DNA of 37,006 nt from an uncultured Bacilli bacterium. Lineage in GTDB: Bacteria > Bacillota_I > Bacilli_A > RF39 > UBA660. The notes beneath the pieces were generated by a model, which searched no databases, was not told the origin of the DNA, and saw nothing but the letters and a program-made list of their open reading frames with translations. Below are positions 55 through 19,603 of the stretch, piece after piece. The stretch spans positions 1 through 37,006 of the forward strand of contig CANQIN010000006.1 of assembly GCA_947623995.1 (NCBI GenBank). The letters are read 5' to 3'. The translations under genes were made by a program, and so were the position numbers. The first letter of the stretch is position 1; every line of letters begins with the position of its first letter.

Positions 55-81
55 TAGATTATAGAAATGAGGTTTTTAAAT

Positions 82-474
82 ATGTCAAATTTATTAATAG
101 GAGCTGTTAATTTTTGTGCTAATACTGCAAATATATGGCAAATTGTTGGATATGTATTATTAGTATTTAAAATTGTTATTCCAATTATTTTAATTGTATT
201 TGGAATGTTGGATTTAGGAAAGGCTGTTGTCGGAAGCAAAGATGATGATATTAAAAAAGCTGTTAAACAACTTGCAATGCGTGCTGTTGCAGCTGTAGTT
301 ATATTCTTTATTCCAACATTAGTAAGTATGATTTTAGGTTTAGTATCTAATTTTCAAAATTCTGGAGCTAGAGAAGATTTTAATGTATGCCGTCGTTGTA
401 TAACTAATCCAAGTGATGATTGTCCTGAAGCACCTGATGCTTGGAATGGCGACTATTCTACTATAGATGAATAA
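82..474 (+). CDS. VirB2/TrbC pilin-like small membrane protein (stand-alone copy 1 of the repeated two-TM module)
   Basis: Two hydrophobic helices with motif GYVLLVFKIVIPIILIVFGMLDLGKAVVGSKDDDIKKAV...RAVAAVVIFFIPTLV and C-terminal CRRC; start moved to ATG 82, which has a better RBS than ATG 67. Confidence 0.75.
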   Translation: MSNLLIGAVNFCANTANIWQIVGYVLLVFKIVIPIILIVFGMLDLGKAVVGSKDDDIKKAVKQLAMRAVAAVVIFFIPTLVSMILGLVSNFQNSGAREDFNVCRRCITNPSDDCPEAPDAWNGDYSTIDE

Positions 475-482
475 TGTAAACT

Positions 483-508
483 AGAAAGTAATTAAACTTT
501 CTTTTTTT
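483..508 (+). terminator. Rho-independent terminator after first pilin-like gene
   Basis: AGAAAGT-AATTAA-ACTTTCT followed by a T tract. Confidence 0.65.
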
Positions 509-544
509 ATGACTTAATGTTAAAATAATTAAAAAGGTGAAGAA

Positions 545-1996
545 ATGAAAAAGTTAAAATATTCGTTTTTTATTATATTATTAATTGCTTTTAGTTTTGT
601 TAATATCAAATCTATTAACGCTTTAAGTAAAAAAGAAGCTGTTAATAAAGTTAATAATTATATAGTAGGGGCTATAAAGGATAATACATGGAAAGTTAGC
701 AATTCAGAAACTGATAAAGATTTTTATGATATAGAAATCTTTATAGGTAATATTAATAACGATTCAAATTTAAAAGAAGCAATTAATGGTGTTGCATATC
801 TATCACCAACAGACCATGAATCTTATAAATCAACTGTTTTATTGTTTGGATGTAAAAATGCTGATAAATGTGATGATGAACATAATTTTGAATATAATAT
901 TCATTTTAGATTAAAAAATGATGATAGTGGTAATATTTTTCTTTATACAGATTATTTTGTTACAAAAGATGAGTACAATGGGATGAAAAAAGCTAAAAAA
1001 GTATTGTATACTATAACTACTAATCGAAAAGGTTTGGAAGGAAATATAGTAAAAGAAGGTAGTTATTCGCAAAGCGTAAATATAAATGAAGATGAGATAG
1101 ATAAAACTGAAGGTAGGAGTGGCAATCCTAAATTAATTAGTGAGAACGAAACTATTACTATTCCAGAAAAAGATGATAGTTTTTGGAATGATTCAGGATT
1201 AAATAAATGTTATTATATTAAATTTAATTTCAGCAAATTTAAATTTGCTAGATATATTATTGAAGATAAAAATGCTGCTGGAAGTAATATTTTTATAAAT
1301 AGTACTGATTTAGCTAAAAATATTGTTGAAGATTGTAAAGATGGTGGGGTTTTTGGGATATCTAAAGATAATGTGTATGCTATTTGCAATTCTTTTGGTA
1401 AAACATATACTTTTAAGTACAAAGATAGTACCGAATTAAATACATGCACTGATAAGCAAAAAAAAGATGCAGAAAGCCAAAATGGAGAAGGTACAACTAA
1501 GTTGTTAACAAAGGAAGAACAAGAACAAATAATTAAGGATAATAAAGAAAAATATAAGGAAGATAATGGTAATTGGGACCCCAATAAATTATGTGATAAT
1601 GGCAATTGCAATATAGATATAACTAAGTTTTGTAATGACCCTTATGTGGCACGTACTTTAAAATTTTTAGGATTATTATTAGCAATAGCAAAAGTTTTAG
1701 TTCCAGCTTTAATAATTGGTCTTGGCTTTGTTGATTTGGCTAAAATTGTGATATCTGGAAAAATGGATGAAGCTAAAAAACAAGGAATAAATATAATTAA
1801 AAGAGTAGTAATTGGAGTTGTAATTTTCCTTATTCCAACCATTTTAATAACAATATATAATGTAGCATATAGTATAGCTAATGATAGTGAAGAAACATTA
1901 AATGGAGAATTAAATGTTCCTACTAATTTTAAAAATTGTGTTGGATGTATATTAGATGCTAATAATAAAGAAGCTTGTGTTGTAAATTCAGATTAA
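545..1996 (+). CDS. Secreted/surface protein with N-terminal signal segment, large extracytoplasmic region and C-terminal VirB2-like two-TM module
   Basis: N-terminal hydrophobic signal (MKKLKYSFFIILLIAFSFVNIKSINA); C-terminal ARTLKFLGLLLAIAKVLVPALIIGLGFVDLAKIVISGKMDEAKKQ...RVVIGVVIFLIPTI...NCVGCIL. Confidence 0.7.
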   Translation: MKKLKYSFFIILLIAFSFVNIKSINALSKKEAVNKVNNYIVGAIKDNTWKVSNSETDKDFYDIEIFIGNINNDSNLKEAINGVAYLSPTDHESYKSTVLLFGCKNADKCDDEHNFEYNIHFRLKNDDSGNIFLYTDYFVTKDEYNGMKKAKKVLYTITTNRKGLEGNIVKEGSYSQSVNINEDEIDKTEGRSGNPKLISENETITIPEKDDSFWNDSGLNKCYYIKFNFSKFKFARYIIEDKNAAGSNIFINSTDLAKNIVEDCKDGGVFGISKDNVYAICNSFGKTYTFKYKDSTELNTCTDKQKKDAESQNGEGTTKLLTKEEQEQIIKDNKEKYKEDNGNWDPNKLCDNGNCNIDITKFCNDPYVARTLKFLGLLLAIAKVLVPALIIGLGFVDLAKIVISGKMDEAKKQGINIIKRVVIGVVIFLIPTILITIYNVAYSIANDSEETLNGELNVPTNFKNCVGCILDANNKEACVVNSD

Positions 1997-2012
1997 GAAA
2001 GAAGTGAGTTTG

Positions 2013-2606
2013 ATGAAAATTGATTCAGTTGAATTACAGAAAATTGCGGTTAGACAAAGCCAATATCCTGAGAATAATAAACCTGAATTTTTGTTAGTTG
2101 GAAGAAGTAATGTTGGTAAATCTAGTTTTATAAATGCTGTAATAGGCCGTAAAAATTATGCTAGGACATCAAGTAAACCTGGTAAAACCCAAACGTTAAA
2201 TTTTTATTTAATTAATAATGAATTTTATTTAATAGATGTTCCAGGTTATGGATATGCTAATGTTTCAAAAGAAGTAAATAAGAAAATGGGATTGATGATT
2301 GAAGAATACATTAAAAGTAGAGGTAATTTAAGTCATGTATTTTTACTTATTGATTATCGTCATAAACCAACTGAAGATGATATCTTAATGTATAATTATT
2401 TACAATATTATAATTTAGATACAACGGTTATTGCTACTAAATATGATAAAGTAGGAGCCTCTTCTAGGATCAGTCAAGATAAGTTAATAAATGAAACATT
2501 AAAAATAGATGAATTTATTCATTTTTCATCTACTACTAAAAAAGGAAGAGAAGAAATATATAAAATTATTTTAAAAATTTTGGGAAAAAGTGACAAAGAA
2601 GAGTAA
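2013..2606 (+). CDS. engB: Ribosome biogenesis GTP-binding protein YsxC/EngB
   Basis: GRSNVGKSS (G1), GKTQTLNFY, DVPGYGYA (G3), TKYDK (G4); typical ~195 aa length; ORF track starts at upstream GTG 2004. Confidence 0.93.
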   Translation: MKIDSVELQKIAVRQSQYPENNKPEFLLVGRSNVGKSSFINAVIGRKNYARTSSKPGKTQTLNFYLINNEFYLIDVPGYGYANVSKEVNKKMGLMIEEYIKSRGNLSHVFLLIDYRHKPTEDDILMYNYLQYYNLDTTVIATKYDKVGASSRISQDKLINETLKIDEFIHFSSTTKKGREEIYKIILKILGKSDKEE

Positions 2607-2635
2607 AATATAGAGATTTTTATTTTAGGGTATGG

Positions 2636-2641
2636 TATAAT
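2636..2641 (+). promoter_or_regulatory. Putative extended -10 box (TGGTATAAT)
   Basis: TATAAT preceded by TGG, upstream of GTG/RBS of the ORF at 2666. Confidence 0.4.
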
Positions 2642-2665
2642 TTAGAAGAGTAGGAGCGTGATAAG

Positions 2666-3253
2666 GTGAAAAAAATACTGTTATTACTATTTTTATTTTT
2701 TTTAATTCCGACTGTTTATGCTTCTAGTTCTATTAAGTATTTACTTGAAAATAATCAAATTGAAATTATTAATTCAAATTCTAATGAAATAATAAAAATG
2801 GTAAAATCTAATAATAAAAAAAATACTAATAATGATTCTAATGATATCTCACCAACTGATTGGGGTAAAGTTGAAGATACAGATTTAGAAACCATTTGTA
2901 GTAAGCCAGAGCTTAGAAAACCATTAAAATTTATTGGCACGATAATATCAATTCTTAAAATTGCAATACCAATTTTAATTATAATATTTGGTATTATTGA
3001 CTTATTTAAAGCAATTCCTAATTCTAAAGATGACCGAATAATGGTTGCAATTAAGTCTATTGGTGTGAGATTTATTGCTGGTGTATTTATTTTCTTTATT
3101 CCGGGAATTATCCAGTTAATACTTGACTGGGTAAATGAATGGAGTAATTATCAGAATACTTGGTGTTGTTGTACTCAATGTATTTTAGATTCTGGAAAGT
3201 GTGATGTCAATTCATGTAGTAGTGATTCATGTAAAATAGGAGGTATGAATTAA
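2666..3253 (+). CDS. VirB2-like small membrane protein (module copy 3) with signal peptide
   Basis: GTG start; signal peptide; KPLKFIGTIISILKIAIPILIIIFGIIDLFKAIPNSKDDRIMVAIKSIGVRFIAGVFIFFIPGI; Cys-rich tail WCCCTQCILDSGKCD. Confidence 0.75.
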   Translation: MKKILLLLFLFFLIPTVYASSSIKYLLENNQIEIINSNSNEIIKMVKSNNKKNTNNDSNDISPTDWGKVEDTDLETICSKPELRKPLKFIGTIISILKIAIPILIIIFGIIDLFKAIPNSKDDRIMVAIKSIGVRFIAGVFIFFIPGIIQLILDWVNEWSNYQNTWCCCTQCILDSGKCDVNSCSSDSCKIGGMN

Positions 3254-3738
3254 TGAAAAAATATTTAGTATTATTAATAACTATAATATGTTTTGTAGGA
3301 ATTAAAAATGTTTATGCAGAAAATGCAAATTATAATATGAGAGTAAATATTGCTAACATTAAAGGTGAATATATTAAATTAGATGATGAAAATGAAGAAG
3401 TAAAATCAGCAATTAGTAATAAAAATCCATGTGTTAAATTGAAATCACCATTAAAATTTATTGGTTATATTTTACTTATTGTTAAAATTGTTATTCCTTT
3501 ATTATTAATTATTTTTGGTATTATTGATTTATTTAAAGCTGTTACGGGAGGCAAAGATGGAGAAGTAACTAAGTCTTTAAAAACTTTTGTATTTAGGCTT
3601 ATTGCAGGAGTTGCTATCTTCTTTATTCCAACAATTATTAGCTTTGTCTTTACATTGGTTGATGGATTTGATGACGTTGAATCTGAATATGAGTTATGTC
3701 AAAAATGTATTTTGAATGTAAGCAGTTGTGATAAGTGA
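3253..3738 (+). CDS. VirB2-like small membrane protein (module copy 4) with signal peptide
   Basis: TAATG overlap with previous gene; SPLKFIGYILLIVKIVIPLLLIIFGIIDLFKAVTGGKDGEVTKSLKTFVFRLIAGVAIFFIPTI; tail ELCQKCILNVSSC. Confidence 0.78.
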   Translation: MKKYLVLLITIICFVGIKNVYAENANYNMRVNIANIKGEYIKLDDENEEVKSAISNKNPCVKLKSPLKFIGYILLIVKIVIPLLLIIFGIIDLFKAVTGGKDGEVTKSLKTFVFRLIAGVAIFFIPTIISFVFTLVDGFDDVESEYELCQKCILNVSSCDK

Positions 3739-3765
3739 AAACATAATTGTTTTCATTTTTTTTTT
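3736..3765 (+). terminator. Rho-independent terminator whose stem includes the TGA stop codon
   Basis: TGAAAACA-TAAT-TGTTTTCA perfect 8-bp stem followed by about 10 T. Confidence 0.7.
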
Positions 3766-3775
3766 ATGTTATACT
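3747..3775 (+). promoter_or_regulatory. Putative promoter overlapping the terminator
   Basis: TTGTTT about 17 bp upstream of TATACT, ahead of ATG 3799. Confidence 0.4.
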
Positions 3776-3798
3776 TGCTATGTTAAGGGTGTTAATTT

Positions 3799-4194
3799 AT
3801 GAAGAAAAAACAGATTTTTATATTATTGATATTATTAATTATTTTTTATACTAATCCTGTTTTAGCAGATAATTATACTAAAAGTTACTGCACGGGATTA
3901 AAAAGTACTTTAAGAATTGTTGGAGAAATTATTAATGTTATTAGAATTGTTGTACCTTTAATAATTATTGGCTTGGCATTTGCTGATTTATTTAAAACAG
4001 TAACAGCTGGTAAAGATGATTATATTTTTAAATCAATAAAATCAATTGCAACTAGATTAATTTTAGGCGTATTGATTTTCTTTATTCCAGCTATTTTAGA
4101 GTTTGGATTTAGTTTGGTAGATGAATGGACTGATTATGAAACTAATTATCATGAATGTGTAACTTGTGTATTGAATGTTAAAGAATGCCGTTAG
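3799..4194 (+). CDS. VirB2-like small membrane protein (module copy 5) with signal peptide
   Basis: STLRIVGEIINVIRIVVPLIIIGLAFADLFKTVTAGKDDYIFKSIKSIATRLILGVLIFFIPAI; tail ECVTCVLNVKEC. Confidence 0.78.
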   Translation: MKKKQIFILLILLIIFYTNPVLADNYTKSYCTGLKSTLRIVGEIINVIRIVVPLIIIGLAFADLFKTVTAGKDDYIFKSIKSIATRLILGVLIFFIPAILEFGFSLVDEWTDYETNYHECVTCVLNVKECR

Positions 4195-5416
4195 GAGTGT
4201 GGCAAAATTGCAAGGACCAATTTTTGTTAAATTTTTTAGATGGGTTATTTTTGTATTCATTATTGGATGCTTTTCTTTTTTTAGTTTAAAACTTGTTTTG
4301 GCAATTAATAATTCGACTGCAAAAGATAATGAAAAAAGAATTTTATTGGAAGCTGCTCATGGCTCTGGATATATGCCTAATGGTAATGATGAATGTAATC
4401 ATGCCAGTAATACTATTGATGGAATAACATATTATGAAAATTTAGAATCTCGAATTATGATTAATAAAATAGCTGGATATTTAAAGACGGCAAATATTCC
4501 ATATGAAATAAGTAATGAAATTGTTGGCGACGAATATTTTGCTAATAGTAGTTGGCAAAGAAATGATTGCAACCCAATAGGTGATAAATGTTGTGGTTTT
4601 AGACAAGGAACTATTGGTAATTACAGCCCTCTATTATATAGTCATATTGATTCCGTTGGTGCAGACAAATATTTGTTTGCTTTAGAACTTCATTTTAATG
4701 ATTACCAAGAAAATAATATACCAAATGAAAGTGTTGTGTTGGTTAAAGATGTAAAAGAACCTTTTACTACTAATGGCAAAAAAATTACAGATGCAGTTGA
4801 TAAAATAATAGGTACAAGTGGTTCAAAAGTTGCAAATGACTATCAATATTTAAATACAAATTTAGAAACATTTAATAATTTATATGTTAAAAGAAATATA
4901 CCAGTGTATTATTTAGAAACTTTTTCTATGAATAATAATAAGCAATTAGAAAAATATCTTAGTAAAAAAGAAGAATTAGCTAAAGAAATAGCTCAAGCAT
5001 TAATTGAGATATCTGGAAATGAAATAAATTTAGATGCCGAGGAAGATGAATTTACTGTTGGTAGAAAAAGTGATCCTTTTAAAAATTATTCCTTAATAGT
5101 TAATAATAATGATTTTAATTGTAAAGCTATACTAGTTGATATTAATACTGGTGAACTAAATAATTTAGGAAAATTATTGCAAGATATTTTTACAATAATT
5201 AAAATTATGGGACCTGTATTAGCTATTTGTCTTTCTATTATTGACTTTATTAAGGCATTATCTTCTAATGAACCTAGTAAAGAACAAAAAAATGCTTTAA
5301 AAAGAACAGTTATAAGATTAGTAATTGCAATTATTTTGCTGTTTTTGCCTTACTTACTAGATTTATTATTTCATTCATTTGGTTTATATGATATTAGCCG
5401 ATGTGGGATAGAATAG
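4175..5416 (+). CDS. N-acetylmuramoyl-L-alanine amidase (Amidase_3-like) fused to C-terminal VirB2-like two-TM module
   Basis: N-terminal TM; ordered LLEAAHGSG, NLESRI, ELHFND, YYLETF match Amidase_3 zinc-ligand/catalytic pattern; C-terminal LLQDIFTIIKIMGPVLAICLSIIDFIKALSSNEPSKEQKNALKRTVIRLVIAIILLFLPYLLDLLF. Real start may be GTG 4199 or TTG 4208 (RBS TAGGAG). Confidence 0.75.
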   Translation: MLKNAVRSVAKLQGPIFVKFFRWVIFVFIIGCFSFFSLKLVLAINNSTAKDNEKRILLEAAHGSGYMPNGNDECNHASNTIDGITYYENLESRIMINKIAGYLKTANIPYEISNEIVGDEYFANSSWQRNDCNPIGDKCCGFRQGTIGNYSPLLYSHIDSVGADKYLFALELHFNDYQENNIPNESVVLVKDVKEPFTTNGKKITDAVDKIIGTSGSKVANDYQYLNTNLETFNNLYVKRNIPVYYLETFSMNNNKQLEKYLSKKEELAKEIAQALIEISGNEINLDAEEDEFTVGRKSDPFKNYSLIVNNNDFNCKAILVDINTGELNNLGKLLQDIFTIIKIMGPVLAICLSIIDFIKALSSNEPSKEQKNALKRTVIRLVIAIILLFLPYLLDLLFHSFGLYDISRCGIE

Positions 5417-5428
5417 AGGTTTAAAGTA

Positions 5429-6406
5429 ATGAAAAAAATATTATATTTTATGGTTTTATTCTTATTATTTCCAATGATAACTTTTGCTTATAATCTTAAT
5501 ACTGAAGGTATGAATAAAGAAATTGCTAATTTAATAGAAGAATTAGAAATAGATTGGCCAAGTGGATTAGATGAAGGCAGATTAGAAATAATAAGACAAG
5601 CAGGATTAATGATTAATAAAGGAACTACTTATGGAGGTCATACTGGTATATGTTATACTAATAAACCACCAAGTTTAGATTGCTCAGCTTATGTTTCTTT
5701 AGTTTTTCATCGTGCTGGAGTAACAGAAGTTGGGTGTGATTGGACTACCGCTGGATTTACTGGTTCTAGTTCATTTGAAAATATTAATGAATCAGATTTA
5801 AGACCAGGTGATATTGGCTTAAATAATGATACTCAAGCAACGGGTAATGCTAATCATGTTGGAATATATGTTGGAAAAAGAAATGGAAATAATATTTGGT
5901 TTCATAGTTCTAATTATAATGGAGTATCAGGACCACAAGTAAGAGAAGGTAACAATAATTTTGCCGTTTTTAAAAGATATAATAAATGGAATGAAGTGCA
6001 TGTTAGTAGCTCTAGTTCTAATTCTGGTATTGGTGGTGAATTAGGGGGCAGATTAGATGATCCATATGTCAATATGTCTTTAAATACTTCAAATGATTTT
6101 AATTGTGAAAATATATTTTATACAATGAATAGTGATGGTTCAAAAAGTGAAAAAACTTTAAAAGTAATATTAGATTGGTTATTTAATGCAATTACTTTTG
6201 TAGCACCTATTATTGCAATTATTTTAACAATTATTGATTATATAAAAATTATATCTAATAATAGTTCAGATGGATTAAAAAAAGCTAATATTAGAATGAT
6301 AAAAAGAATGGCTATTGCTATTTTAATTGTATTTTTACCATTTTTATTAGAATTTTTATTTAATATTTTTGGACTTTATGATTTAAGTAATTGTGGTATT
6401 TCATAA
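5429..6406 (+). CDS. NlpC/P60-type cell-wall hydrolase fused to C-terminal VirB2-like two-TM module
   Basis: Signal peptide; LDCSAYVSLVFHRAGV (catalytic Cys), RPGDIG, NHVGIYVG (catalytic His); C-terminal ILDWLFNAITFVAPIIAIILTIIDYIKIISNNSSDGLKKANIRMIKRMAIAILIVFLPFLLEFLF. Confidence 0.82.
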   Translation: MKKILYFMVLFLLFPMITFAYNLNTEGMNKEIANLIEELEIDWPSGLDEGRLEIIRQAGLMINKGTTYGGHTGICYTNKPPSLDCSAYVSLVFHRAGVTEVGCDWTTAGFTGSSSFENINESDLRPGDIGLNNDTQATGNANHVGIYVGKRNGNNIWFHSSNYNGVSGPQVREGNNNFAVFKRYNKWNEVHVSSSSSNSGIGGELGGRLDDPYVNMSLNTSNDFNCENIFYTMNSDGSKSEKTLKVILDWLFNAITFVAPIIAIILTIIDYIKIISNNSSDGLKKANIRMIKRMAIAILIVFLPFLLEFLFNIFGLYDLSNCGIS

Positions 6407-6465: not shown

Positions 6466-8727
6466 ATGTTAATAATGTCTCTTGGTACTTGGTTAAATAA
6501 TATGTTTCATAAAATATTATTATTAATTGATGGTTGTATTTATTGGGCTGTTTCACAAGTATATCAAATTTTTATTAAATTAGCTGATGCTAGAATCTTT
6601 CAAGATGCTTTTTTTAGTAATTTTGCTAAAAGAATATATGCTATTATTGGCGTCGTAATGTTATTTTATTTAGCATACGCTTTACTTAATTCTTTAGTAG
6701 ACCCAGATAAAGCAACTTCTGGTGATAAAAGTTTAACTAAACTTGCTCAAAATATAGTTATTTCTTTAGTTTTATTAGGCTTCCTTCCTACTATTTTTGA
6801 TTATGCTTATAAAGTACAAGGTGTTATTTTTAAAGAAAATGTGATTGGAACAATTATTTTTGGAACTGGTTCTACTAATTCAGATAATATTATTCAATAT
6901 GGAAATTATATGGCATATACTGCATTAAATCCTTTTTTAAATCCGGCTAATTATAACGTTAGATTAGATGATAATTATAGTTGGTTTGATTTAAAATATG
7001 ATTTAATAGAAAATGGTAATTTTACTAATTTACCAGTTTTATCAGATTGGGCTGTAGAAGACCAAAAAACAATTAGTGAGTCTTTAGTACCAAATGATGA
7101 TGGTGAGCCTGAAGTTATTTCTGAAGGAGAAATGGTTCCTTTAAATTATAGACCTATTATTTCAACAGCTTGTGGAGTAGCATTGCTATATATTATATTT
7201 TCATTTTGTTTAGATTTAGGTATTAGGATTGTAAAATTTGCTTTTTGCCAGTTAATTGCCCCTATACCTGTTGTTTTAAGAATGCTTCCAGGAAAAAAAG
7301 GAACATTTGATAAATGGCTTAAATTAACTTTAACGGTTTATTTTGAAGTTTTTATTAGAGTAGGAATAATGTATTTAGTAATTTATTTTTTTAGTGAAAT
7401 AGCTAATATGGATATGTTTAAATATGCAACTAGTGGAATTCAAGGTTTAATAGTATTGGCTATTATATTATTAGGTTTACTTGCTTTTGCCAAGCAAGCT
7501 CCTAAAATGCTAAGTGATATGTTAGGACTTGATTCAGGTAATATTAAACTTGGTATTAAAGATAAGTTAAAAGCTGGTGGCTTCTTTGCGGCTGGTGCTG
7601 CTATAGGAGGTGGAGCATTATCAATAGGTCGTAATTTGGTTGCAGGTGGGAAAAATTTTGTTAATCAATGGAGGACAAATAAAGAGCTGGCTGATAGGGA
7701 ATTTGCTTATCATCGAGAAAATGCAAGATATGAAAATGACCATTGGAATAGAGCTGGCGAAGCTTTAGATAATGCAAGAGCAGTTGGAGCATATGGAAAA
7801 CTGATTGGTCGAACTTTATTTAATGGGATAGGAGTTGGCTTATCTGCGGCAGGTGGTGGAATATCAGGATTAACTAGAGGTGGATATAAAGCAAAAGATG
7901 CTAAAAACTTGCATGATACTCGTAATGCTTCAATATCGGCAGCTGCTGAAGCAGAAGCAGCTAGAGCTGCAAGAGATGGTCGTGCTGATGCAGCTAGAGA
8001 TGCTAATCCAGATATTGCAGGAATTCCAATTATTGGTGGAGCATTGGCTTCGGGAGCTCAAGCAGTTCAAAATGCTGCAATTTCGGCTAATAATTTAATT
8101 CAGGGCGAAGCAAGTTATACCTTAACTGAATCTGAAAAAGCTCGTAAAGAAGTATTAGAAAAATGGCAATCACTTGTTAAAAACTATGAAAATTTATGGA
8201 AGGGCGAAAAAGCTTATGTTGATGCTGAAGCAAATCAAAGAAATGCTCATGTAGAAGCTGCTGTTGCTCAAAATGAATTTAATAATTTTGCTGCTAGTGT
8301 GAATAATGATTATCGTAATGAATTTACAAGAATTATGAATAGTAATCCAAACAAGAAAGTTGAAGATGCAAGTAGAGAAGCGTATAATACTGTTAGACAA
8401 AACCTTAGTCAAGCTGAAAAAACTCAGTTATTAAATCAAAAAGACCAATTTGCAAAGTTATTTAAAGAAATGCAACAAGCTAATAAAGCTTCATCAAAAG
8501 CAGATAGTATTTTAAAAGCTACAGTTGATGAAATTAAGAGAACTAAAGATTCTGCATTAACTTCTAATATGGCTCAAATTGATAACTTCCGTAAAAATCA
8601 TTCAATGTATGCTCAATATATTGGAAAAGAAGGGGATACTATTGATAAAAAACCAGTAACTAATGAATTAAATAGTTTAAGATTAAAAGAAGATACATTA
8701 TTGCAAAGAAAACAAGATAATAAATAA
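6466..8727 (+). CDS. VirB6/TrbL-like polytopic T4SS membrane protein with long Ala-rich coiled-coil-like C-terminal region
   Basis: About 6 TM helices in first ~330 aa, position upstream of PrgI- and VirB4-like genes; C-terminal ~380 aa rich in A/E/N/K. Confidence 0.72.
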   Translation: MLIMSLGTWLNNMFHKILLLIDGCIYWAVSQVYQIFIKLADARIFQDAFFSNFAKRIYAIIGVVMLFYLAYALLNSLVDPDKATSGDKSLTKLAQNIVISLVLLGFLPTIFDYAYKVQGVIFKENVIGTIIFGTGSTNSDNIIQYGNYMAYTALNPFLNPANYNVRLDDNYSWFDLKYDLIENGNFTNLPVLSDWAVEDQKTISESLVPNDDGEPEVISEGEMVPLNYRPIISTACGVALLYIIFSFCLDLGIRIVKFAFCQLIAPIPVVLRMLPGKKGTFDKWLKLTLTVYFEVFIRVGIMYLVIYFFSEIANMDMFKYATSGIQGLIVLAIILLGLLAFAKQAPKMLSDMLGLDSGNIKLGIKDKLKAGGFFAAGAAIGGGALSIGRNLVAGGKNFVNQWRTNKELADREFAYHRENARYENDHWNRAGEALDNARAVGAYGKLIGRTLFNGIGVGLSAAGGGISGLTRGGYKAKDAKNLHDTRNASISAAAEAEAARAARDGRADAARDANPDIAGIPIIGGALASGAQAVQNAAISANNLIQGEASYTLTESEKARKEVLEKWQSLVKNYENLWKGEKAYVDAEANQRNAHVEAAVAQNEFNNFAASVNNDYRNEFTRIMNSNPNKKVEDASREAYNTVRQNLSQAEKTQLLNQKDQFAKLFKEMQQANKASSKADSILKATVDEIKRTKDSALTSNMAQIDNFRKNHSMYAQYIGKEGDTIDKKPVTNELNSLRLKEDTLLQRKQDNK

Positions 8728-8745: not shown

Positions 8746-9060
8746 ATGAATAATAACTATTTGATACCAGCAAATACGAAAAAGTCAAAATTAATTTTAG
8801 GATTTTTTACTGGAATTGATTTAGCCATTTTTGGAAGTGGATGTGCTATAACTTTGATAATGTTAGTAATCTTTCAAGGAATGAATTTTACTACCGCCTT
8901 AATAGTTATTTTACCAGCTTTGATATCAGGTTTTTTAGTTATCCCTGTTCCGAATTATCATAATGTGTTACAATTAATAACGAATATTGTAACATTTATG
9001 ATGGGAAGAAAAAGGTATTATTGGAAAGGTTGGTGTATGATACATGGCAAAGAAGAATAA
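8746..9060 (+). CDS. PrgI/VirB3-like small membrane protein
   Basis: 104 aa, two central TM helices, directly upstream of and overlapping the VirB4-like ORF, as in PrgI-VirB4 loci of Gram-positive T4SS. Confidence 0.72.
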   Translation: MNNNYLIPANTKKSKLILGFFTGIDLAIFGSGCAITLIMLVIFQGMNFTTALIVILPALISGFLVIPVPNYHNVLQLITNIVTFMMGRKRYYWKGWCMIHGKEE

Positions 9061-9619
9061 AAATGATAAAGAATTATTAAGTAAGTGGAGTGAAGATTGG
9101 GTTCCAATTAAAAATATTTTGAATGGAATGATTGAACTTGAAAGTGGTGAATATGTTACTGGAATTAAAGTAGCACCTCGAAATATTTTTATTTTAGATG
9201 CAGGAACTAGAGATAATGCTATTTATCAATTACAAAATTTTTATAATACAATTAATTATGAATTTTGGTTAGTTGTTGCTGATCGTCCTGTTGATATTCA
9301 AGTTTACTTGTCACAATTACAAATTTTATATAATAATGCTACTAATGCTAATACAAGAAAATTAATAACTCAAGATATTAATAAAGCTAATATGTTTATG
9401 TCTGCTGAATATAATGTTGTTGATACTGAGTATTATATTTTATTTAAAGAAAAGAAAATGGATGTTATTCAAAAACGTTTACATCAAATGATTAGTAATT
9501 TAGCTAATTGTGGATTAAATAGTCAACAAACATCTAATAATGATTTAAGAGTTATTTTAGATAATTTCTTTAATGGAGGAGTAATGACCTCTTATAGTGG
9601 GATGGTGAGTCCAGAATGA
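9044..9619 (+). CDS. VirB4-like ATPase, N-terminal part (split gene)
   Basis: N-terminal region resembling TraE/VirB4 N-domains (WVPIKNILNGMIELESGEYVTGIKVAPRN); ends TGA inside an ATGA overlap with next ORF. Confidence 0.7.
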   Translation: MAKKNKNDKELLSKWSEDWVPIKNILNGMIELESGEYVTGIKVAPRNIFILDAGTRDNAIYQLQNFYNTINYEFWLVVADRPVDIQVYLSQLQILYNNATNANTRKLITQDINKANMFMSAEYNVVDTEYYILFKEKKMDVIQKRLHQMISNLANCGLNSQQTSNNDLRVILDNFFNGGVMTSYSGMVSPE

Positions 9620-11400
9620 ACCTAAAAGCACAGATTGCTCCAAAGGGAGTAGAATTTAAACCAACTGAATTTATGATGAGTGGGAAGTATTGTACCATTT
9701 TAACTGTCGTAAGTTTTCCAAAATTTATTTCTCAAGGCTATTTAGCTAATTTAACTAATCTATCTGGTATTAAAATTGTTGCTAAACATATACCTATTGA
9801 GTTATCAACATTGCAAAGAATGATTAATAAAGAAATTGCCGATTTAAAAAGCCGTTATCAAACGGAAAGAGACCGTACCATTCAAGAGCGAATTAGACAA
9901 GATTATGAATCATTAGAACAATTTATTTCGATGTTAGTGGCTACGCAAGCAAGAATTTTTGACTTTCAATTACATATCTTTATTTCAGCAGATACCAAAG
10001 ATGAATTAAATAGTAAAAAAATGCAAGTTAGAAATTATTTAGATGCTTTAGGTATGCGAGGAATTTCTTTAATGTTTGAGCAAGAAAAAGTCATTAAATC
10101 AATGTTACCAATTTTCCCCAAACAAGATATTGAAGAACGAGTAGGAGCGCCTATTCCATCTGTTACCATCGCGGCTATGTATCCATTTATTTTTGATAGT
10201 ATTAAAGACCCAGGAAATAGTACTTTATTTGGTGTTGATTTTTCAGGAGGAGTTGTCTTATTTAACCAATTCTTATATCAGATTAAAAAAGAGCATAACC
10301 GTAATAATGCCAATATGATTATTTTAGGTACTACTGGTTCAGGTAAATCAACCGCAGCTAAATTATTACTTAGAAGTCACATTAGAAATGAATATAAAAT
10401 TGTCTGTGTTGACCCTGAAGGAGAATTAAAAGATATGGCTACTAATATGGGTGGAGACTTCTTAGACCTTGGTAAAGGTGGCGATTTTGGAATGGTAAAT
10501 CCATTAGAAATCGTTATTGATGCTGATGAAGAAGAAATAAATCAAGGCTTAGGTTATACCGTTTTAACTAGAACTTTACAACAATTAAAAGCTTTTATGA
10601 AATATTATTCACCTGATATTGAAGAAGATGTCCTAACCATGTTTACGGAAGTAGTAACTGATACTTATAAACGTTATAAGATTGATTATGATACAGACTA
10701 TACTAAATTTACTAGTGCTGATTATCCAACATTTGACGATGTCTATGCTACGATAAAAGGAAGACTTTTATCAATGACTGAGCGTACTCATGAACGAGAT
10801 GTAATGGAAAGACTTGAACTTAAAGTTAGACCATTAGTTAAAGAATTACGTTATTATTTTACAGGACATACAACTCTAGATATTAATAGTGATTTTATTG
10901 TATTTAATATAAAAGAATTAATGAATGCAGATGAAAATGTAAGAAATGCTTTGTTCTTTAATGTTTTAAAATATGCATGGGGTCTATGTTTAGATCCAAG
11001 TGTTAATACAGTTATGTATGTTGATGAAGCCCATGTTCTTTTATCAACTAAAAATGAATTAGGTGCTGAGTTCTTAGCTCAAATTCAAAGACGAAGTCGT
11101 AAGTATAATACGGGAACAATTATAGTTACTCAGCAACCTACTGACTTTGCCGCTCCAAGTGTAATTACTCATGGTAAAGCTATTTTTGATAATGCCGCAT
11201 ACTATCTAGTAATGGGCTTAAGAAAACAAGCTATTGATGATTTATCAAAATTAATTGACTTAAATGAAAGTGAAAAAGAAAGTATTAAATACTATAATCA
11301 AGGAGAAGCCTTATTTGTCTGTGGAAATAGAAGAATGAGAATTAATGTTATTGTAACTCAAGATGAATTAGATTCCTTTGGTTCTGGTGGTGGATTATAG
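9616..11400 (+). CDS. VirB4-like T4SS ATPase, main part
   Basis: Walker A GTTGSGKST; Walker B-like TVMYVDEAHVLL; RRSRKYNTGTIIVTQQPTDF typical of VirB4/TraC ATPases. Confidence 0.9.
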   Translation: MNLKAQIAPKGVEFKPTEFMMSGKYCTILTVVSFPKFISQGYLANLTNLSGIKIVAKHIPIELSTLQRMINKEIADLKSRYQTERDRTIQERIRQDYESLEQFISMLVATQARIFDFQLHIFISADTKDELNSKKMQVRNYLDALGMRGISLMFEQEKVIKSMLPIFPKQDIEERVGAPIPSVTIAAMYPFIFDSIKDPGNSTLFGVDFSGGVVLFNQFLYQIKKEHNRNNANMIILGTTGSGKSTAAKLLLRSHIRNEYKIVCVDPEGELKDMATNMGGDFLDLGKGGDFGMVNPLEIVIDADEEEINQGLGYTVLTRTLQQLKAFMKYYSPDIEEDVLTMFTEVVTDTYKRYKIDYDTDYTKFTSADYPTFDDVYATIKGRLLSMTERTHERDVMERLELKVRPLVKELRYYFTGHTTLDINSDFIVFNIKELMNADENVRNALFFNVLKYAWGLCLDPSVNTVMYVDEAHVLLSTKNELGAEFLAQIQRRSRKYNTGTIIVTQQPTDFAAPSVITHGKAIFDNAAYYLVMGLRKQAIDDLSKLIDLNESEKESIKYYNQGEALFVCGNRRMRINVIVTQDELDSFGSGGGL

Positions 11401-14351: not shown

Positions 14352-15662
14352 ATGAAAGTAAAAATTATATTTAAAAAAATAATAATTATAAGTTTAGTCA
14401 TTATTTTATGCCTATTAACAATAATTTATAAAAACAATAATTCATATAATAATAATGTTTACTTTGCCTTTTATAAAGAAAATGAAAAATTAGAAAGTAT
14501 GCCAGAAAAAGATAATTTAGAGGATTTAGTGTTTAGTTATGGAAATTGCAATAATGGAGCGAGTATTGAATGGGATGATGAAGCATGGGCGCCTTTAGTA
14601 AAAAATTTAATCAAAAGTAAAACTAAATGTAATATTCACTTTAGAAAATCTTCTGGAATTGAATATATTAAAAATTTAGCTAAAACTTCATCTTCATTAA
14701 CATGGGATGGTAAAAAGACTGTAGGTATTTATGGGACAAATGATAATAATTTAAGATACATTGGGTCTAATCCAAATAATTATGTATTATTTAATAATGA
14801 ACTTTGGCGAATAATAGGAGTAATGAAGGTAAAAACAGATAATAATAATGTTGAAGAAAGAATAAAATTAATAAGGAAAGATGGTACAAGCGGTCAAAAA
14901 GATTTTGGACAATATAGTTGGGATAGTAAATCAAGTGGAAGTGGAAGTTCTGATAATGATTTGGGAAGTAATGATTGGACTGATAGTCAATTAAAAGATA
15001 TGTTAAATGGGATCTATTTAAATAGTGAAATTGGCGATTGTTATAAATCTAATCCAACTACTGTAAGTACTAAAACAAATTGCGATTTTACTGGTAATGG
15101 TTTAGAACCTAAAGGGTTAAATAAAGAATCTCAAGATATGATTGACTCTGATATAAAATGGAATCTAGGAGGTTGTGATAATACTAAAATAACTGTAAAT
15201 GAAATGTATGAAAATGAAAGAAGTAATAATGTTAATAGCAATAGACCAACAGAATGGTCGAAAGCAAATGATCAAAAATATCATAATGGTGTTGGATTAA
15301 TGTATTATAGCGATTATAGATATGCAACTGATGGAGGAACCATAGGAAGAGAAAAATGTTTAAGCCTGTTACTGGATATTAGTGAAGAAAGTTGGTACAT
15401 TTCTAAGTATAGAATCGAATGTGAAGGAAATGATTGGTTAAAGCCTAATAGATATGAATGGACTTTATCACATAATTTAACATACTCTTATCGAGCTATT
15501 TACATTTCTAATACTGATATAGGGTATAATCTTTGGGTTAGTTATACATTAGGTGTACAACCAACAATTTATCTGAAATCGTCTATTAAAATTCTTTCCA
15601 ATCCAAATCCAGAGTTAGAATATGGTACCATAGATAATCCTTTTCAATTAGGATATGTTTAG
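14352..15662 (+). CDS. Membrane-anchored surface protein, paralogue of 18011-19603
   Basis: N-terminal TM; shares RYIGSNPNNYVLFNNELWRIIGV, QKDFGQYSWD, LKDMLNGIYLNSEIG, PKGL, TIYLKSSIKI...NPxxEYGTIDNPFQL with ORFs at 18011/19403. Confidence 0.75.
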   Translation: MKVKIIFKKIIIISLVIILCLLTIIYKNNNSYNNNVYFAFYKENEKLESMPEKDNLEDLVFSYGNCNNGASIEWDDEAWAPLVKNLIKSKTKCNIHFRKSSGIEYIKNLAKTSSSLTWDGKKTVGIYGTNDNNLRYIGSNPNNYVLFNNELWRIIGVMKVKTDNNNVEERIKLIRKDGTSGQKDFGQYSWDSKSSGSGSSDNDLGSNDWTDSQLKDMLNGIYLNSEIGDCYKSNPTTVSTKTNCDFTGNGLEPKGLNKESQDMIDSDIKWNLGGCDNTKITVNEMYENERSNNVNSNRPTEWSKANDQKYHNGVGLMYYSDYRYATDGGTIGREKCLSLLLDISEESWYISKYRIECEGNDWLKPNRYEWTLSHNLTYSYRAIYISNTDIGYNLWVSYTLGVQPTIYLKSSIKILSNPNPELEYGTIDNPFQLGYV

Positions 15663-18010: not shown

Positions 18011-19603
18011 ATGGTATTTATGGAAGATAAAAAAGAAAATAAAACTTTTATAATGGTATTAATAGGAATAATAGGAGCTTGTTTAATTACAATTGGACTA
18101 ACTTATGCCTATTGGATACTAACAAGAGAGCAAACAGGCGAGAATGTTGTTAATACAGCTTGTTTAAATATTAATTTTAACGGTGAAAATGATATAACAC
18201 TTGATAAAGCTTATCCAATGAATAATGAACAACTAGAAAAATTTTTAAGTACAGCAACACCATATCATTTTACCATAGAAAATACTTGTGATGATCTAGC
18301 AAACGCCACAATTAATTTAGAAAGCTTAAATGCAGGAGCAGAAAAACAATTAGAAGATGAATATATAAATGCAATTCTTTATGAGACAGATTATCATACT
18401 AATTTAAATAGTATCAAGAAATTAAGTGCAAGTATGTATAATGATGAAAATAAAGTAATATCAAATTCATTACATGCATATCAGTTATACAATTTTGTTT
18501 TACAAAAAGGAGAAACAAAAAGTTTTAATTTATTACTATATATGGATCCAGATACACCAATGGTAAGTGCCAATATGAATGCTAGTTGGAAAGGTAAAAT
18601 AACTCTAAGTGCTAACTATAAAGAAGAGCCAACTGCTAATTTGAATGGATTAAAAATACCAGTAGTAGAAACTGGCGATGGCTTATATGCTGTAAGTCAT
18701 GATGTAAGCGAAATAAGTACCGATTGGAATAAAACTGAATACAGGTATGCTGGAACTAATCCAAATAATTATGTATCATTTAATAATGAAATTTGGCGAG
18801 TAATTGGTTTAGTAAATGTTCAAACAGATAGTGGTATATTGCAAAGAATAAAAATAGTAAGAACAGATGAGGTAAAAGATCAAAAAAACTTTGGTAACTA
18901 TGCATGGGATAAAGCATCATCACCAAATAATAATTGGACATCATCAGGTTTAAAAAATATGTTAAACGGTATTTATTATTCAAGCGATATTGGAGAATGT
19001 TTTACAGGAAATAACAGTAGTATGACAAATTCTTCGACATGTGACTTTAGCACAGGAACAAATTTGCCAAAAGGCTTAGATGAAACTGCCAAGAAATTAA
19101 TAGATAATGAATTAGTTTGAAAAATAGGATGTTGGAATACTGCTAATATAAATGTAAATCAATTTTATGAAAAGGAGCGTGGAACAACAATATGTAATAA
19201 TAATCCTGTTGAATGGAACAGTACAACTGATACAGAAAATAAATATAATGGAATAGGGTTAATTTATCCAAGTGACTATGCATATAGTATAGGTGGAAAC
19301 ATAAGAAACAGTTGTTTAGAAAGCAATTTAAATAATTATGATAGTGAAAAATGTAAAGATGGAACGTGGTTAAAACCAAATAATCAATATTTTTGGACTA
19401 TAATGCCTTCTTCAGCTAATGATTTTTCAGCGTCTCTTATTAATTCTAGCGGAAATATTGGAGTAGATTACTATACTGCTTCTTCTGGTGAAATTTGGCC
19501 AACCTTATATCTAAAATCTTCTGTTAAAATAACACCTAATCAAAATCCAGAACAAGAATATGGAACTGTAGATAATCCATTTCAATTATCAATATCTGAG
19601 TAA
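18011..19603 (+). pseudogene. Membrane-anchored surface protein (TasA-like N-terminal region) interrupted by a single in-frame TGA at 19118-19120
   Basis: ORFs 18011-19120 and 19403-19603 are in the same frame; the translation after the TGA (KIGCWNTANINVNQFYEKERG...) continues alignment with the paralogue at 14352 up to NPFQL. First in-frame ATG after the leader is at about 18020. Confidence 0.75.

Follow-up and report, generated by a model that had tools for sequence, protein, structure and literature searches.

Can wall cutting be built into a pilin-like subunit of a type IV secretion system (T4SS)? In most descriptions, T4SSs pass the cell wall by means of a VirB1-type enzyme that is a separate protein. 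The question is raised by a 37,006-nucleotide stretch of DNA (hereafter, the window) from an uncultured Bacilli bacterium of the RF39 order, in which, according to a preliminary description, two adjacent genes each encode a hydrolase head followed by a two-transmembrane (two-TM) module. Both ORFs were found (Table 1), and the fusion is real, conserved, and syntenic. As far as the sequences can be read, these hydrolase heads on pilin-like proteins suggest wall cutting as an integral part of the secretion machine, which is related to conjugation systems and belongs to a family of gut bacteria with small genomes.

A T4SS locus with two hydrolase fusions

The two fusion genes lie between a pilin array (67-4194) that is interrupted by engB and the genes for VirB6-like, PrgI/VirB3, TrsD-like, and VirB4 proteins. 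The clustering of VirB4, VirB6, VirB3/PrgI, and TrsD is that of a monoderm (MPF_FATA-like) T4SS, VirB6 and PrgI being recognized by weak profile matches and synteny. A scan of flanking window genes gave no relaxase gene; flanks and neighbours alike are ordinary chromosomal genes, including engB and gltX. By its gene content, the locus is a chromosomal T4SS of monoderm type, apparently relaxase-less within the flanking genes scanned. A plasmid origin was rejected, as the amidase fusion has no plasmid match. A viral origin was also rejected, as a scan for close relatives in viral contigs gave no confirmed match to VirB4.

Table 1. Genes and domains of the T4SS locus, in window coordinates
Feature	Position	Strand	Size and basis
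Small pilin-like two-TM protein	67..474	+	135 aa; T4SS_pilin E=1.5e-4 (below cut-off); fused-module profile 34.7 bits
Large ectodomain, then pilin-like two-TM module	545..1996	+	483 aa; 30.6 bits; syntenic orthologues 450-819 aa
EngB/YsxC-type GTPase, housekeeping gene within the array	2004..2606	+	MMR_HSR1 E=2e-18; same place in relatives
Pilin-like two-TM protein	2666..3253	+	195 aa; 27.4 bits with fused-module profile; synteny
Pilin-like two-TM protein	3253..3738	+	161 aa; 32.9 bits with fused-module profile; synteny
Pilin-like two-TM protein	3799..4194	+	131 aa; 30.9 bits with fused-module profile; model: long helix, loop, proline-broken helix
Predicted Amidase_3-fold hydrolase + pilin-like module	4175..5416	+	413 aa; ORF, structure match
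Amidase head	4322..5029	+	aa 50-285; Foldseek against Amidase_3 structures, conservation
C-terminal two-helix module of the amidase protein	5060..5413	+	aa 296-413; alignment, model
NlpC/P60 hydrolase + pilin-like module	5429..6406	+	325 aa; Pfam NLPC_P60 E=2.6e-8
NlpC/P60 head	5489..6013	+	aa 21-195; profile match to MepS/Spr, CwlO structures
C-terminal two-helix module of the NlpC protein	6044..6403	+	aa 206-325; tblastn, alignment
VirB6-like polytopic membrane protein	6466..8727	+	NCBIfam Mbov_0396 family E=2.4e-6, below cut-off; synteny
PrgI/VirB3-like protein	8746..9060	+	weak Pfam PrgI/TcpE matches; conserved between virB6 and virB4
TrsD-like protein (VirB4 N-terminal part as its own gene)	9044..9619	+	NCBIfam VirB4_plasma E=1.3e-14, profile 92-276
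VirB4 ATPase	9616..11400	+	NCBIfam VirB4_plasma E=1.8e-102, below equivalog cut-off; P-loop_TraG

Is this arrangement common in the genus? The gene order is kept in ten related loci, as far as their contigs extend. In nine of these ten, the neighbour of the amidase gene is a clear orthologue of the window NlpC fusion, and locus L094 has an additional head-bearing protein between the amidase and the NlpC-fusion orthologue. At least nine related genomes have the amidase-NlpC pair flanked by the pilin array on one side and by virB6-virB3-trsD-virB4 on the other. The last gene of the array overlaps the amidase-fusion gene by 20 bases, and the same is seen in L085 and L086. The split of VirB4 into two ORFs might be taken for a frameshift. 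However, TrsD (180-222 aa) and VirB4 (about 594 aa) are separate in every intact related locus. Thus, the split is not a frameshift; TrsD and VirB4 as a separate pair have also been described in Patescibacteria T4SSs (PMC12102498).

Two other features of the window may be mentioned here. The 545-1996 protein and its relatives (450-819 aa) have a large, highly variable ectodomain ahead of the pilin-like module and are possibly adhesins. A repeated family of secreted proteins sharing a domain (YAGTNPNNYVSFNNEIWRVIG...) is encoded at 14352-15662 and 18011-19603 of the window and at L007:15148-16503. The 14352-15662 protein has no Pfam match, and the 18011-19603 copy is interrupted in the window (18011-19120 and 19403-19603).

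Hydrolase heads and their active sites

The NlpC/P60 label of the preliminary description was borne out by Pfam (PF00877, 34.2 bits, E=2.6e-8, above the cut-off of 23). In an alignment of the head profile with structures, C85, H143, and H159 line up with the Cys-His-His triad of MepS/Spr, and the three residues are invariant across ten orthologues.

The Amidase_3 label was upheld by fold but not by Pfam: the Amidase_3 Pfam model has no match in the 4175-5416 protein, and a PDB sequence search with the amidase returned no relatives. The fusion was modelled with AlphaFold2 (mean pLDDT 76.9, with blocks of the head often above 90). When compared with PDB using Foldseek, the modelled head matched Amidase_3 enzymes with E values of 1.8e-6 to 1e-4 and a probability of 1.00, the partners being endolysin catalytic domains, CwlD, and AmiC2 (TM-score by target mostly 0.55-0.76). 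The predicted structure of this head is of the Amidase_3 fold. H62, E88/E91, H173, and E248 are invariant across ten orthologues, and I take them to lie in the active site by motif knowledge rather than by residue-level superposition, the expected site presumably comprising the Zn ligands His-Glu-His and a catalytic Glu. Active-site residues, presumed ones in the case of the amidase, are, in short, present and invariant in both heads. Among the orthologues, the mean identity is 63% for the amidase head versus 52% for its module. Each of the two fusion proteins has a signal sequence, as judged from sequence and model.

The module is related to the stand-alone pilin-like proteins

Does the C-terminal module of the fusions really belong with the small proteins of the array? 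The modules of the amidase and NlpC fusions are 47% identical (tblastn). Conserved cysteines flank both TM helices, one before the first and the other after the second; in the amidase protein, these are C316 and C410 (alignment), and the model has helices at 330-362, 367-389, and 391-401. A profile was built from three fused modules only, namely those of the two window fusions and of an orphan copy that the same genome has on contig C4. It matched the five pilin-like ORFs of the window with 27-35 bits (E 1.8e-7 to 9e-10), against maxima of 13.2 bits for composition shuffles and 21.0 bits for 12-residue block shuffles of those ORFs (2,000 each). Profile-profile comparison of fused and stand-alone modules gave E=2.4e-14 over 75 columns. 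The stand-alone profile finds 74 of 74 fused-class proteins, and the fused profile finds 137 of 137 stand-alone-class proteins. The latter profile misses 166 of the 376 ORFs having at least two hydrophobic segments; thus, it is no generic TM detector. The predicted fused and stand-alone models are alike: in each, a short loop joins a long helix to a second helix that is broken by proline. By profile evidence, the fused module is homologous to the stand-alone pilin-like proteins beyond mere composition, as had been proposed, and a chance resemblance of hydrophobic helices is ruled out by the shuffle controls and the mutual profile matches. Of the two outcomes named beforehand as speaking against the proposal, a module that does not group with the stand-alone ones and missing catalytic residues on alignment, neither occurred.

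In a tree, the fused class falls on one side of a branch (SH-aLRT 100, from few columns). Thus, the fused modules form a paralogue group separate from the stand-alone ones. Both fusions end in the GLYDxSxCGI tail (...FGLYDISRCGIE for the amidase protein and ...FGLYDLSNCGIS for the NlpC protein). This tail is confined to the fused class, and the small modules, which had been described as the same module, end in another cysteine-containing tail.

Is the module a VirB2 pilin? A signal sequence and two TM helices with a short loop are present, as in VirB2/TrbC/T4SS_pilin (hydropathy and models). In the window, no protein reaches the Pfam T4SS_pilin (PF18895) cut-off of 26.6 bits: the amidase fusion scores 20.3, the NlpC fusion 13.8, and the small ORFs at most 22.2 bits. 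Outside the window, the cut-off is exceeded by a head-bearing fusion in L058 (27.7 bits) and a family member in L119 (29.2 bits). A model of the stand-alone module (moderate confidence, pLDDT 71) has no fold match in PDB at E<=0.001, and no pilin was among the matches when the stand-alone pilin-like protein was compared with PDB by sequence and by fold. The term VirB2-like reflects a weak sequence similarity without a fold match. Since the Pfam cut-off is missed in the window and no fold match was obtained, membership in VirB2 is not claimed here; of the initial proposal of hydrolases fused to a VirB2-like subunit, the fusion stands, and the VirB2 identity is at best putative.

Distribution of the module and variety of heads

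Among the genomes scanned, matches to the module profile were obtained for 35 of 38 in the window's family and for one of 258 other Bacilli. The module is essentially absent from these 258 genomes. In the genus, the part N-terminal to the module exceeds 100 aa in 65 proteins, which form seven recurrent clusters plus singletons. The heads are Amidase_3-like (16 genomes), C39-like peptidase (15), NlpC/P60 (13), divergent NlpC-like and a second C39-like type (both assigned by eye), ELLD endolysin-like, and VgrG3-C lysozyme-like. The module also carries composite heads, M15+Amidase_3 and Amidase_3+NlpC among them. There are up to five copies per genome, and orphan copies occur away from the operon (for example, on contig C4 of the window genome). 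Some proteins of the fused class are headless, with a short N-terminus only. A divergent NlpC-like head in genome G006 (L039:6467-7657) lacks the presumed catalytic Cys and His kept by its orthologues and is perhaps degenerate and purely structural. The same fusions recur with intact frames in independent genomes.

Thirteen loci of other genera contain virB6, and in 12 of them the gene immediately upstream encodes a module protein of at least 290 aa that bears a head. No recognized hydrolase was found in the heads scanned at this slot in 11 other genera. The reverse domain order occurs elsewhere in the family, with an N-terminal or internal module and a C-terminal M23, C39, or GDSL domain; such loci are L109:697-1797, L106:15227-16240, L121:6414-8075, and L120:8777-10501 (M23 peptidase, GDSL lipase, C39 peptidase). 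In other Bacilli families, 13 long-frame T4SS_pilin loci contain no hydrolase fusion (G330, locus L169, was left out because it is cut at the contig start), and those of the 13 that are ICE loci encode no pilins other than small ones. The architecture is therefore wider than first noted, with many head types, a family-wide head-bearing slot, and orphan copies.

A second locus encodes a VirB1-like hydrolase

The preliminary description set the fusions against the separate VirB1-like hydrolases of known T4SSs. A replacement of such an enzyme by the fusions is not borne out. A second locus of the window genome (G000), L129:3300-8908 on contig C27, encodes a VirD4-type ATPase (E=2.4e-56) clustered with an 854 aa protein having M23 and phage-lysozyme domains; a single-TM protein of about 300 aa, VirB8-like by eye only, is also encoded there. 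In nine genomes of the genus, the VirD4-type ATPase and the intervening gene are found again, together with a relative of the M23+lysozyme protein. By its domains, the M23+lysozyme protein is a conventional, if putative, VirB1-like enzyme. Since it lies beside a VirD4-type ATPase, the fusions are additional to VirB1.

The window genome has further T4SS genes. L130:3779-9521 (contig C24) is a separate, probably mobile T4SS with a small pilin, an 819 aa VirB4, and an M23 protein. L131 (contig C74) has another VirD4 near a serine recombinase bearing a LysM domain.

Does the cell have a wall of its own?

The window genome has five transpeptidase hits, MraY, and MurA. Given the PBPs and MraY, a cell wall is probable. 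MraY and PBPs, and in most cases MurA, are kept in the window genome and its subclade (G001-G006, G008, G009, G017, and G026). MurB was not detected in 11 genomes of this subclade, whereas the congeners have it, and Mur ligase hits number at most two in the subclade versus mostly 3-7 in the congeners. The dcw cluster of G001 retains PBP, MraY, FtsW, and MurG, with a different gene after MurG where the congeners carry MurB; the loci concerned are L143, set against L147 and L148. The gap in MurB and Mur ligases would reflect either a loss of the middle precursor pathway or a systematic mis-binning of the metagenome-assembled genomes. The D-Ala-D-Ala ligase profile is unmatched in most of the genus and thus does not separate the subclade. 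Field et al. (2024) reported that the RF39 order misses precursor steps and inferred muropeptide scavenging (PMC10868615). A wall-less cell, whose hydrolases could target only others, is suggested by the Mur ligase counts, but this idea is weakened by the five transpeptidase hits, MraY, and MurA and further by MurG and FtsW in G001.

Possible roles of the fusions

What do the fusions do? To my mind, there is an even chance that they are membrane-anchored, machine-associated wall-cutting subunits of the T4SS, most simply acting on the cell's own wall. Two peptidoglycan hydrolases would be tethered in the membrane by a module paralogous to the pilin-like subunits of the array and would be the subunits with which a non-conjugative monoderm T4SS cuts the wall. 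As in VirB2, both ends of the module would be outside and a positively charged loop inside, and the two cysteines may pair as a disulfide. If VirB6 and the other pilin-like subunits are assembly partners of the module, the head would cut peptidoglycan at the very point where the machine passes through or touches a wall. The most economical target would be the cell's own wall at the machine, and the wall of a partner cell may also be one. The genes for a VirD4-type ATPase and a separate VirB1-like hydrolase lie at the second conserved locus.

This machine-associated role is favoured by the module homology, the operon synteny, the slot in 12 of 13 loci of other genera, the invariant catalytic residues (presumed ones in the amidase), the amidase fold, the partner locus with T4CP and VirB1-like genes, and the probable presence of a wall. 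Counted against it are the missing VirB2 fold match, the conventional VirB1-like hydrolase already encoded, the headless members, the G006 head without catalytic Cys and His, and the orphan copies. The great variation of heads also counts against a purely structural role at the cell's own wall, for which it would be unusual.

It is possible, rather than probable, that the module is a docking or display platform whose exchangeable enzyme heads break into or digest bacteria nearby, in the service of antagonism, epibiotic growth, or the salvage of muropeptides, by analogy with T6SS effectors on VgrG or Hcp. At least seven recurrent head families and composites on one module in one genus, with endolysin-like ELLD, VgrG3-C-like lysozyme, C39, and M15 types among them, are in line with such use, as are the up to five copies per genome with orphans and a VirB1-like enzyme that already covers the own-wall function. 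So are the seeming absence of MurB and Mur ligases from the subclade, the muropeptide scavenging predicted for RF39 (PMC10868615), and the finding that patescibacterial T4SS genes are essential to epibiotic growth (PMC12102498). However, no immunity-like genes were seen adjacent in the loci compared, and the amidase-NlpC pair is stably syntenic across the subclade, unlike typical toxins. It is rather doubtful that such heads, on a docking module derived from a pilin ("evolved pilins"), open or harvest neighbours' walls in support of an epibiotic or muropeptide-scavenging life in cells without part of the wall-precursor pathway.

It is unlikely that hydrolases of ordinary growth borrowed a duplicated pilin module as a two-TM anchor with no functional link to the T4SS. 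Orphan fusions outside the operon, the separate branch of the fused modules, and the members with a short N-terminus only would fit a mere anchor. A bare anchor would hardly explain why the genus keeps the fusions strictly between pilins and virB6 in the operon, why 11 other genera have the same slot, or why module residues, cysteines, and tail are conserved far beyond its needs. Finally, a chance likeness of hydrophobic helices, or false gene fusions from sequencing error, is highly improbable: TM-rich sequences of the window do yield many spurious Pfam matches (GPCR families, for example), but this explanation is refuted by the shuffle controls, the 166 of 376 hydrophobic ORFs that the profile leaves unmatched, and the identical fusions with intact frames in independent genomes.

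If the fusions are indeed wall-cutting subunits of the machine, a pilin-like subunit can have wall cutting, and possibly the choice of target, built in, through a family-wide variable-head slot filled with diverse wall hydrolases in one genus. It would also suggest an unrecognized contact-dependent lifestyle in uncultured gut Bacilli with reduced genomes, parallel to that of Patescibacteria.

Comparison with known systems

In the T6SS, exchangeable enzyme domains are found on a conserved apparatus component, in evolved VgrG/Hcp. This is an analogy only, a structural subunit fused to an effector in an unrelated machine. Gram-positive T4SSs are usually described as having no pilins (PMC12102498). 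Their VirB1-like proteins, PrgK, TraG of pIP501, and Orf14 of Tn916, are likewise multidomain wall hydrolases of monoderm T4SSs, and the M23+lysozyme protein of 854 aa encoded next to the T4CP resembles this kind; unlike for the fusions, neither a pilin-like C-terminal module nor a set of exchangeable heads on a common module has been described for any of them (PMC12857230). A search of open-access literature yielded no report of a hydrolase-pilin fusion, Patescibacteria genomes being outside the search. By NCBIfam, the VirB4, VirB6-like, and pilin-like proteins have relatives in the Mycoplasma ICE (the pilin-like Mbov_0395, Mbov_0396, and Mbov_0397), with scores below the equivalog cut-offs. 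That ICE is a mobile element, whereas the locus here is a fixed chromosomal operon, and in the TGA-reading families with small genomes, most pilin-like matches are small, headless ORFs.

In kind, the T4SS of Patescibacteria (CPR) comes closest. These belong to another phylum, their hydrolases are separate proteins with no pilin-hydrolase fusion in the published text, and most of their genomes with VirB2 lack VirB1, whereas the window genome has a VirB1-like protein (PMC12102498). "Ca. S. epibionticum" has peptidase and lysozyme genes near virB4 (PMC12102498). In other respects the two are alike: the patescibacterial system is chromosomal and mostly relaxase-less, with a VirB4 related to the MPF_FATA class, has TrsD, PrgI/VirB3, VirB6, and tandem divergent pilin-like genes or VirB2 arrays, and has its T4CP usually encoded apart from virB4 (PMC12102498).
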